From IMG/VR virus record IMGVR_UViG_3300031576_000001, positions 248,001 to 312,000 of that record: 64,000 bases of DNA. The stretch is one strand, 5' to 3'. Below are positions 1,580 to 59,877 of this stretch, one piece after another. The notes beneath the pieces were generated by a model. It did no database searches. It saw only the letters and a list, made by a program, of their open reading frames with translations, and was not told the DNA's origin. The position numbers were made by a program, and so were the translations under genes. Source of the stretch: a virus. Positions within the stretch are counted from its first letter, which is position 1; every line of letters begins with the position of its first letter.

Positions 1580-2479
1580 TTAGCACACCACAAGGGCTCC
1601 GCACGCTTTGGCGCTAGAAGGGCGTACCGAGAGGGTTAAGGGGTACTGGCTACGCTTCAGGTACCAGACCCACCTTGCGTCAAAGGGGCCAGACTGAGGG
1701 GGTACGACCACGGCGGGCTTTGCGGGTGGCTTGTTGCAAGCGCAGTCATTGTTCTGGTGGAGCCCAAAGAGCTTGACCTTGACGATGCCCACCGTGTACA
1801 GCGGTACCGTGAGGGCGAGCACACGCCCGACGTGCAAAGCTCCCATCACGTTTTGCGCGAGACCCATGGCTAAGCCATTAGCCTCTTTGCGGAGACTCCG
1901 CTCACTGGCGCCAAGGTAGGCGATCTGAGAGTGGTCCACCGTGCCAGCCTTGCCTGCCTCAAGGCTCGTTGCCCGAGGGACTACCCTCATGCTCACGTCC
2001 TGCCATCCAGACTCGCTGGCTCGCAGGTATCCCAGGTGACAGGAAGCGCAACCCGTGTCTTCGCTAGAGCGGGCGCTGTCCTGGGCACGTTCCTGCTTCC
2101 CCTCGTCGTAAGTAATACGCTCCAAAGCCGAGCTAAGCGCGGATTTGCTGGTTTCCGCCGCGATGCGTTGATTGCGCAAGGACGTGAGCCTGACCTTGGT
2201 GCCTTCAATACGAAGGTTACAGTCAGCGACGGCATTGCACTCGGTTTCCCAGTCCTTGGACAGCAACGTCACTACGCGCTCCCTCTCCGCAGCAACCCCC
2301 TTGTCATAGGCAACCCTCACGGAAGCCAGCACCCAAGAGAGAGCCTCCTCGTCGGTGTCAAAGGTGACCTTACTCTCCCCCTTGGTGGTGTCCACAAACC
2401 GATTGAAGGCGTCGGCAATTTGCGTGCGCCATTTGAGGCTGCACTCCTCGTAACCCGCTAGTTTGTCGTTGTCGCTCAT
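1580..2479 (-). CDS. Coiled-coil protein with hydrophobic segment, paralogue of 2701-3243
   Basis: 299 aa, function unknown. Residues ~40-75 (KVTFDTDEEALSWVLAS and following) match the middle of the 2701-3243 protein (PVVFTNDEEALAYMDHAL), so the two are diverged paralogues. A helical region of ~60 residues follows, then a CxxC-type pair and a hydrophobic stretch around residues 215-240 that could be a membrane segment. The start has a GTGTAAAGT promoter-like box 12 bases upstream. The CRISPR-like array lies between this gene and its paralogue. Confidence 0.65.
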   Translation of the reverse strand: MSDNDKLAGYEECSLKWRTQIADAFNRFVDTTKGESKVTFDTDEEALSWVLASVRVAYDKGVAAERERVVTLLSKDWETECNAVADCNLRIEGTKVRLTSLRNQRIAAETSKSALSSALERITYDEGKQERAQDSARSSEDTGCASCHLGYLRASESGWQDVSMRVVPRATSLEAGKAGTVDHSQIAYLGASERSLRKEANGLAMGLAQNVMGALHVGRVLALTVPLYTVGIVKVKLFGLHQNNDCACNKPPAKPAVVVPPQSGPFDARWVWYLKRSQYPLTLSVRPSSAKACGALVVC

Positions 2480-2491
2480 GGTTCTGTCCTC

Positions 2492-2500
2492 ACTTTACAC
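2492..2500 (-). promoter_or_regulatory. GTG-TAAAGT promoter-like box
   Basis: Same GTG-TANNNT pattern as other sites in the window, 12 bases before the ATG at 2479. The longer gap leaves room for a short leader with a GAGGA Shine-Dalgarno. Confidence 0.5.
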
Positions 2501-2528
2501 CAAAGAGGTTCTCTAGGGTAGTCTCAAA

Positions 2529-2679
2529 GAAAGAATCCCCGCGTGTGCGGGGAACACCGCCAGGCGTACCCCAAGGCTCACGTCGAGACCGGTACATCCC
2601 CGCGTGGGTGGGGAAAACTCACTCCTTGGGGCTCCTACGCGGTTTACCTCGGGTCGATCCCCGTTCACACGGGGAACAC
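2529..2679 (-). CRISPR. Three-repeat type I-E-like CRISPR mini-array
   Basis: Three 29-nt repeats begin at 2529, 2590 and 2651, exactly 61 bp apart, leaving two 32-nt spacers (2558-2589 and 2619-2650). That is the repeat/spacer spacing of type I-E arrays. Each repeat has an ATCCCC...GGGGAA(A/C)AC core. The stem is kept while the sequence drifts: repeat 1 pairs CCCCGC with GCGGGG, repeat 2 keeps it with one G-U wobble, and repeat 3 has the compensated pair CCCCGT/ACGGGG. By comparison with the E. coli repeat the crRNA would be read from the minus strand, the same direction as the flanking genes. No cas genes are present in the window, so any function would use host Cascade proteins. The outer parts of the repeats are degenerate. 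Confidence 0.75.
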
Positions 2680-2700
2680 TCTAAGTTGAAGGCGCAACCG

Positions 2701-3243
2701 TCAAGCAGGCTGGTCCTTACCAAACAGATCACTTTCCAAGAGGCTAGCCAGCATAGCAACCTCAGCGTCATTCCGTTCCGCCTGGACTTTCGAGTCTTTC
2801 AGCGTTGCACGGGCTTGCTTGGTGCGGGTTGCCAGCGTAGCGCTTCGGTCCTGAGCCTTGCCCCACTGAGAGGTAAGCTCGGAAAAGACACGCTCCAACA
2901 CCGCCCGCTCACCCTCTTTGCGTGCCTCGACGAGCCCACCCAAGGCGTGGTCCATGTAAGCAAGAGCCTCCTCGTCATTGGTGAAAACGACCGGGTTCTC
3001 TGTGTCATGCTTGGTAGCGAGGGCTGAGAGGCGGTCTCGCCAGTCCTGACTCGCACGATCATTGGCTCGCTTGGTTTGCTCGTCGGCATAGACAACGAGG
3101 GCGAGCAGGTGGGCTATCCAATCTAGCGCGGACTCGCGGGAGAGTAGAACGATGGGTGGTACCCCAAGCTGTTTGTTGCGTTGGTTGGCGAGGCTGGTGA
3201 TGCCCTCTAGCCAACGGTCGCGCTCGTCATCTGTCTGGCTCAT
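2701..3243 (-). CDS. Helical protein, paralogue of 1580-2479
   Basis: 180 aa, charged and helical, with no recognised enzyme motif. The segment FTNDEEALAYMDHALGGL is the region shared with the upstream-array paralogue. The C-terminal third (residues ~125-175) is a likely coiled coil. The start at 3243 has a GTG-TAACCG box ending six bases upstream, suggesting a leaderless message. Transcription would run on into the CRISPR-like array, so this gene's promoter could supply the array transcript. Confidence 0.65.
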   Translation of the reverse strand: MSQTDDERDRWLEGITSLANQRNKQLGVPPIVLLSRESALDWIAHLLALVVYADEQTKRANDRASQDWRDRLSALATKHDTENPVVFTNDEEALAYMDHALGGLVEARKEGERAVLERVFSELTSQWGKAQDRSATLATRTKQARATLKDSKVQAERNDAEVAMLASLLESDLFGKDQPA

Positions 3244-3249
3244 AACCCC

Positions 3250-3258
3250 CGGTTACAC
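3250..3258 (-). promoter_or_regulatory. GTG-TAACCG promoter-like box
   Basis: Ends six bases before the ATG at 3243; member of the GTG-TANNNN class. Confidence 0.45.
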
Positions 3259-3981
3259 CGATGGGGCTGCGATCTCGAAATGTTGCCAATCCTGGCGCCC
3301 AGCGAAGAACCCCCCGGAGTAGAAACCGTGCGCCTCAGCCAAGGGTACAAGGGGGTACACACAACCCCATGCTCCCAAAGGTGCCCCTTTTGACTTCAGC
3401 GGGTTCTCGCTGGCGTTTATGTCAAAGGCAGAGCCCCAACTATGTGAACTGAGGTTTACAGCGGACCCTCGGACGAAGCGGGGCACGTACAAGCCATCCC
3501 AGGACACAAGGAGGGACAGCAAGCCAGCCTGGCGCCACGCTTCAAAGAGGTCTACCAAGGGGCCGGCTACTTTACGGTGACACTGTACCTTGCCCGAGGA
3601 GGGTGCTCCCCGTACTCCCCCGATGGGCAAGAGCACGGTAACAAGGTTGTCCCGTGCCCAGGAGCCCTCGACCGTGATTGCCTCTGGGTTCCCTGGTAGC
3701 GGCGAGGCTCGGTAGGCAAACTGCCCCAAGAGGGCTACCTTGGCTGCGTAAGACAGGGGTTTCACGGTGGACACCGTAGGCGCTTCGGTCTCACGCAGCC
3801 CCTGGCTTTCGGCTTCCGCCAGCGTCTCGGCGTCCACCACCCCAGTAATCGCAAGCCCGTAAGTAGCCTGCCACTCGCGGAGCGCCTTGGTTATAGGCGC
3901 GGGCTCCGTCCTCTTAGCTAGAGAGGGCATGACGCCTACGCGGTTCAGAAAAGCCCCCATCTGGTACAGTGCTTCGTCCAT
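3253..3981 (-). CDS. M15-family peptidase with N-terminal peptidoglycan-binding domain (endolysin)
   Basis: 242 aa. Residues ~25-65 form a PG-binding repeat (ITKALREWQATYGLAITG). The C-terminal half carries the M15 zinc peptidase signature: SSHSWGSAFDIN supplies the HxxxxxxD pair of zinc ligands and WQHFEI near the end supplies the last His. Such D,D-carboxypeptidase-like or L-Ala-D-Glu endopeptidases cut the peptide cross-links of bacterial cell walls and commonly serve as phage endolysins. No signal peptide is visible, so export would need a holin; none is clearly identifiable nearby. A TACCCA box lies seven bases before the start. Confidence 0.85.
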   Translation of the reverse strand: MDEALYQMGAFLNRVGVMPSLAKRTEPAPITKALREWQATYGLAITGVVDAETLAEAESQGLRETEAPTVSTVKPLSYAAKVALLGQFAYRASPLPGNPEAITVEGSWARDNLVTVLLPIGGVRGAPSSGKVQCHRKVAGPLVDLFEAWRQAGLLSLLVSWDGLYVPRFVRGSAVNLSSHSWGSAFDINASENPLKSKGAPLGAWGCVYPLVPLAEAHGFYSGGFFAGRQDWQHFEIAAPSV

Positions 3982-59663: not shown

Positions 59664-59804
59664 GGTAACAATCTCTCGTGTTTGGGTGCCTGGCGGAAGG
59701 GGTACACCGAGAGAGCCACGGGGAGGACCACGCTTGCGGGGGAGCTAGAAGAAGGCTTTCATGGTGAGCGTAGGGTAACCAGGGTTAGAGGTTGGTACAA
59801 GGGG

Positions 59805-59877
59805 TGCGCCCTGCGGGAGTTGAACCCGCGCAAAAGAACTTTAGAGGCTCTGTACTCTACCTTTGAGTTAAAGGCGC
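59805..59877 (-). tRNA. tRNA with CUA anticodon (amber-decoding)
   Basis: A complete cloverleaf on the minus strand: acceptor GCGCCTT/AGGGCGC (one G-U), D arm ACTC-AAAGGTA-GAGT, anticodon stem AGAGC/GTTCT, T arm GCGGG-TTCAACT-CCCGC, discriminator A. The anticodon loop reads CTCTAAA, so U33 is followed by CUA and A37, which decodes UAG. The alternative one-base-shifted loop loses the stem pairing. CCA is not encoded (ACCCC follows). It lies in the minus operon between 59924-60367 and 58455-59663. Confidence 0.8.

Follow-up and report, generated by a model that had tools for sequence, protein, structure and literature searches.

Does a short cluster of hairpin repeats in a huge phage, in a record with none of the cas genes looked for, lend guide RNAs to the CRISPR system of the host, work against that system, or do nothing? 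The cluster lies in a window of 64,000 nt (the whole stretch of DNA that was analysed) from an IMG/VR record of 322,633 bp with 58.6% GC. Its size, its 39 predicted tRNA genes and its genes for terminase, portal, clamp loader, DnaB-like helicase and GroEL identify the record as a huge phage, and the terminase, portal and clamp loader genes bear out an initial sequence-only reading in which the array was called phage-borne.

At window positions 2529-2679 the minus strand carries three I-E-like repeats of 29 nt at exact 61-bp steps (61, 61) that leave two spacers of 32 nt, so that both the coordinates and the spacing given in that reading were reproduced, and the phage record holds a mini-array of two spacers. 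The features are collected in Table 1.

Table 1. Features of the array and its flanks, in window coordinates; hairpin energies are those of the minus strand
Feature	Position	Strand	Sequence	Remarks
Repeat 1 (first in transcription order)	2651..2679	-	GTGTTCCCCGTGTGAACGGGGATCGACCC	hairpin -13.7 kcal/mol
Spacer 1	2619..2650	-	GAGGTAAACCGCGTAGGAGCCCCAAGGAGTGA	32 nt; target search, none found
Repeat 2	2590..2618	-	GTTTTCCCCACCCACGCGGGGATGTACCG	A.C mismatch at fifth stem pair on crRNA strand; hairpin -8.6 kcal/mol
Spacer 2	2558..2589	-	GTCTCGACGTGAGCCTTGGGGTACGCCTGGCG	32 nt; target search, none found
Repeat 3 (terminal)	2529..2557	-	GTGTTCCCCGCACACGCGGGGATTCTTTC	hairpin retained (-14.3 kcal/mol), handle segment gone
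Terminator-like element	2526..2553	-		repeat-3 hairpin, then TTCTTTCTTT
Gap, repeat 1 to upstream stop codon	2680..2700	-		21 nt; too short for typical leader
Upstream ORF	2701..3243	-		180 aa, without Pfam match
Downstream ORF	1580..2479	-		299 aa, without Pfam match

All three repeats, at about 29 nt, contain the hairpin core TTCCCC-N8-GGGGAT of I-E repeats, and spacer length and period are exactly those of type I-E. An 8-nt 5′ handle resembling AUNNACCG precedes each spacer (AUCGACCC for spacer 1, AUGUACCG for spacer 2); its loss from repeat 3 is expected, because no spacer follows a terminal repeat. Handles of the form AUCGACC- also occur in the viral I-E-like repeats of L026 and L066. When as many as three mismatches are allowed, the pattern GTKTTCCCC-N7-CGGGGATNNACC matches three times in the window, always within the array and twice with no mismatch, where 0.05 matches are expected; shuffled sequence never yielded three. 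Three TTCCCC-N8-GGGGAT cores at 61-bp steps are expected about 3e-16 times per 322,633-bp record under a first-order model, and no further repeat copy or second array was found in the rest of the 322-kb record. As sequence features, the repeat core, handle, 29+32 spacing and orientation match type I-E far beyond chance, and the I-E-like architecture proposed at the outset stands.

This match speaks against the locus being something other than CRISPR, whether a set of three hairpins with no relation to one another or a single long stretch of structured RNA or terminator, a reading that we regard as very improbable; unrelated hairpins are nearly excluded. The whole region does fold well (z -2.6), and the two spacers have CCCCAAGG/CCTTGGGG in common. 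However, when the repeats were held fixed and the spacers shuffled, 36% of the shuffles folded equally well, and spacer-spacer pairing reached only P 0.02-0.05, so complementarity between the spacers was not convincing as a designed long hairpin.

Near-identity of the repeats was not observed: the other two share 87% and 74% with the reference copy over 23 nt. Because of this, and because drift is also present in other viral I-E-like arrays, we call the array I-E-like. Differences between repeats 1 and 2 spare the handle ACC, and all differences among the repeats spare TTCCCC and GGGGAT, an argument that is partly circular since the array was recognised by these same letters (TTCCCC, GGGGAT, ACC).

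The canonical I-E reading direction (GTGTTCCCC...GGGGATnnACC) corresponds to the minus strand at the array, and this alters the case that had been made for a preserved hairpin, which invoked a compensated pair and, in repeat 2, a G-U wobble as signs of selection on RNA structure. The compensated change from C-G to U-A is real and was confirmed in repeat 1 (2651-2679), whereas the wobble is confined to the plus strand, the minus-strand pair being A.C. At this pair, 8 of 97 distinct viral I-E-like repeats have A.C and 4 have G-U; A.C is therefore at least as common, and the wobble is no evidence for structure selection.

The search for cas genes covered Cas7e, Cas6e and Cas1 with Pfam models, and none of these three was found in the 322-kb record, which is perhaps incomplete. 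The mini-array thus sits in a record with no detectable Cas6e, Cas7e or Cas1 gene, as had been supposed. As positive controls, the Cas7e and Cas6e models find the genes in the record of L044 (a relative described below), and all three models match in named control genomes. Nor did phmmer, with five proteins of L044 as queries, find a match in any of the six reading frames of the record.

An I-E array would usually have a leader with a promoter. Here the gap to the same-strand upstream ORF is that given in Table 1, and no sigma-70-like promoter was recognised in a scan at the array. Given this distance and the missing promoter, read-through from the ORF at 2701-3243 is the likely source of a minus-strand array RNA. 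At the other end, repeat 3 runs into TTCTTTCTTT, the sole terminator-like site in 2400-3300 (a weak result by itself, since shuffles average 0.8 such sites); the T tract after the repeat has 8 T in 10, with a probability of about 9e-5 for one repeat. From its sequence, repeat 3 may double as an intrinsic terminator, a use of a repeat that is not met in the published descriptions of such arrays, as far as the parts of them cited below go.

The best explanation, which we consider somewhat probable, is that the locus is a leaderless, cas-less mini-array of I-E style that is transcribed together with the gene before it and serves host Cas6e and Cascade against competing DNA. A minus-strand RNA would be made by read-through from the gene that ends 21 nt upstream, and may end at the hairpin and T-rich tract of repeat 3. 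Host Cas6e would then cleave at the base of each hairpin to give two crRNAs, the first consisting of handle AUCGACCC, spacer 1 and the repeat-2 hairpin, and the second of handle AUGUACCG, spacer 2 and the repeat-3 hairpin; host Cascade would take these to matching DNA, most likely that of a competing phage or plasmid. Because no adaptation gene (Cas1) was found in the phage record, the array was probably acquired from a host array through recombination, and drift of the repeats would have followed. What two I-E crRNAs require has been kept: there are three hairpins and one ACC-type handle per spacer, and the only repeat lacking a handle is the one with no spacer after it. Against this explanation count the weakened hairpin of repeat 2 on the crRNA strand, the predicted fold of the full transcript, in which the repeats pair with one another and not locally, the failure to recognise a promoter and, as set out below, the searches that returned no protospacer and no such array in related phages.

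A narrower version of the guide-RNA explanation, which we hold only tentatively and think rather unlikely, would make the locus a self-contained crRNA gene, a cas-less I-E mini-array that closes a phage operon on its 3′ side and whose terminal repeat has turned terminator while its Cas6e hairpin is kept. In contigs of the L014 type, an I-E-like hairpin with a T tract (ATTTTCTTTT) comes after a repeat, the repeats being 71 bp apart, and L252 likewise has a repeat and then an I-E-like hairpin with a T tract (ATTTATTTTTTT); these endings hint that such a design recurs in other phages. L014, L019, L025, L038, L052, L104 and L252 all resemble repeat 3 in this respect: about 61-71 bp beyond an I-E-like repeat they have an I-E-like hairpin that leads into a run of T.

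The search of phage and plasmid databases that had been proposed with the array returned no protospacer: for either spacer, no convincing match turned up in IMG/VR, phage records, plasmids or the phage itself, in scans that demanded near-exact stretches in IMG/VR and in collections that may not include the nearest relatives of the phage. Matches to seed-region patterns in IMG/VR were rejected as targets since they were places with 11-13 mismatches, and an additional spacer-1 pattern had no match there; blastn matches in phages and plasmids were at chance level only. Self-targeting was set aside (the best matches within the phage carry 10 mismatches), as was a resemblance of spacer 2 to a neighbouring gene, which covers 18 nt and does not extend.

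Comparison of the repeats with I-E arrays of host genomes had also been proposed initially. In GTDB, the core of repeat 1 together with an NNACC handle was found once, at the final repeat of a genuine I-E array in Serratia rubidaea, and at the level of sequence this shows that the repeat-1 variant is compatible with I-E arrays. The other repeats of that array differ, and Serratia was not taken as host evidence. Two other clues to the host were rejected: the sole relative found for the flanking gene (L132) is unrelated in context, and phage copies of GroEL, at best about 44% identical over full length among those listed, come from scattered hosts. The GroEL gene of the phage itself is at G000:C1 34708-36306, outside the window.

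The lack of a target for either spacer fits an explanation in which spacer content is irrelevant. In an RNA anti-CRISPR (Racr-like) role, which we judge unlikely, repeat RNA would bind host Cas6e/Cas7 and divert them into non-functional complexes. Phage-borne cas-less repeat mimics act in this way on types I-F and I-C in tests (PMC10651486), and in the L014 group a terminator hairpin comes after a single repeat. Racr candidates are solitary by definition, however, clustered repeats having been discarded in the published search (PMC10651486), and here three stand in register. Two exact 32-nt spacers with ACC-type handles kept before both would be superfluous for such a role, and an anti-CRISPR RNA therefore explains less of the anatomy than guide RNAs for host Cascade do.

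The distribution of the array bears on whether it is functional at all. A terminase alignment places the record in a huge-phage clade in IMG/VR. The array is absent from 50 terminase-related huge-phage records, many of which are fragments, and from the record of L133 and LR745208.1; one near match among the 50 was solitary and judged to be due to chance. The array is not common to the clade as sampled. This absence would suit a decaying relic, that is, a piece of an I-E array gained from a host by recombination and drifting without function, as would the differences of 13-26% among the repeats, the stem mismatch of repeat 2, the want of a visible leader or promoter and the spacers with no known targets. 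We nevertheless doubt that the array is such a relic: spacing is still exact, TTCCCC and GGGGAT are intact in three of three repeats (with the partial circularity that the array was recognised by them), and phage genomes tend to shed useless DNA.

Cas-less arrays are rare as viral elements and have been described before. Huge phages carry arrays without cas genes whose repeats resemble those of the host, and use of host Cas proteins has been suggested (Al-Shayeb et al. 2020, PMC7162821). As those arrays are described there, the present one is alike in being a compact array of bacterial-type repeats in a huge phage without adaptation or interference genes, but it has three drifting repeats and no target found, where theirs have a median of six repeats and some spacers with identified targets. 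Viral mini-arrays that have no cas genes and only one to two spacers, and that are likewise intergenic, have also been published (Medvedeva et al. 2019, PMC6858448), in an account that mentions leaderless ones of phages too. The archaeal arrays described there carry promoters in leaders that resemble those of their hosts, and their spacers are directed against sister viruses, in contrast to the leaderless, I-E-like array reported here, for which no target was found. RNA anti-CRISPRs of the Racr kind are described (Camara-Wilpert et al. 2023, PMC10651486) as phage-borne, intergenic repeat mimics without cas genes, as here, but they are solitary units, while the present locus is a row of three repeats, spaced as in type I-E around two 32-nt spacers. 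The array of Cyanophage N-1 (PMC4916379), a 65-kb isolated Nostoc phage, is likened by its presence in a phage genome alone and not by repeat type; it is described in that source as functional. Cas-less phage mini-arrays being already published, the array here adds an I-E-type example in a huge phage. If the guide reading is true, such phages lend guides to host Cascade.

The clade, which includes a relative equipped with an I-E Cascade of its own and a drifting array, lends itself to comparisons of array evolution after the loss of spacer acquisition. That relative is L044, whose record of 469,617 bp is distantly related (terminase 41% identical). On the minus strand at G002:C1 about 76000-86000 (L044 / L166-L167) it has genes for Cas8e, Cas7e, Cas5e, Cas6e and a ResIII-type helicase, and no Cas1 was found in the record. 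The array adjoining these cas genes contains 51 hairpin units in 3.0 kb versus 6-14 in Markov controls. Its stems drift with many compensated changes (CCCCGC/GCGGGG, CCCTGC/GCAGGG, CCTCGT/ACGAGG, CCCTTG/CAAGGG), with pair tallies that are biased toward pairing since the hairpins were selected for being paired, and its spacing shrinks from about 60 to about 50 bp. I-E-like arrays of two or three diverged repeats are present in further IMG/VR contigs (L057, L058, L078; L034, L053; L089; L111), and L061 has scattered single I-E-like repeats.

A predicted tRNA gene with a CUA anticodon lies at window 59803-59877 on the minus strand, far from the 38-gene tRNA cluster (G000:C1 21209-31256). ARAGORN calls it tRNA-Pyl and it is perhaps a suppressor; TAG is still the stop codon in 36 of 169 long ORFs.
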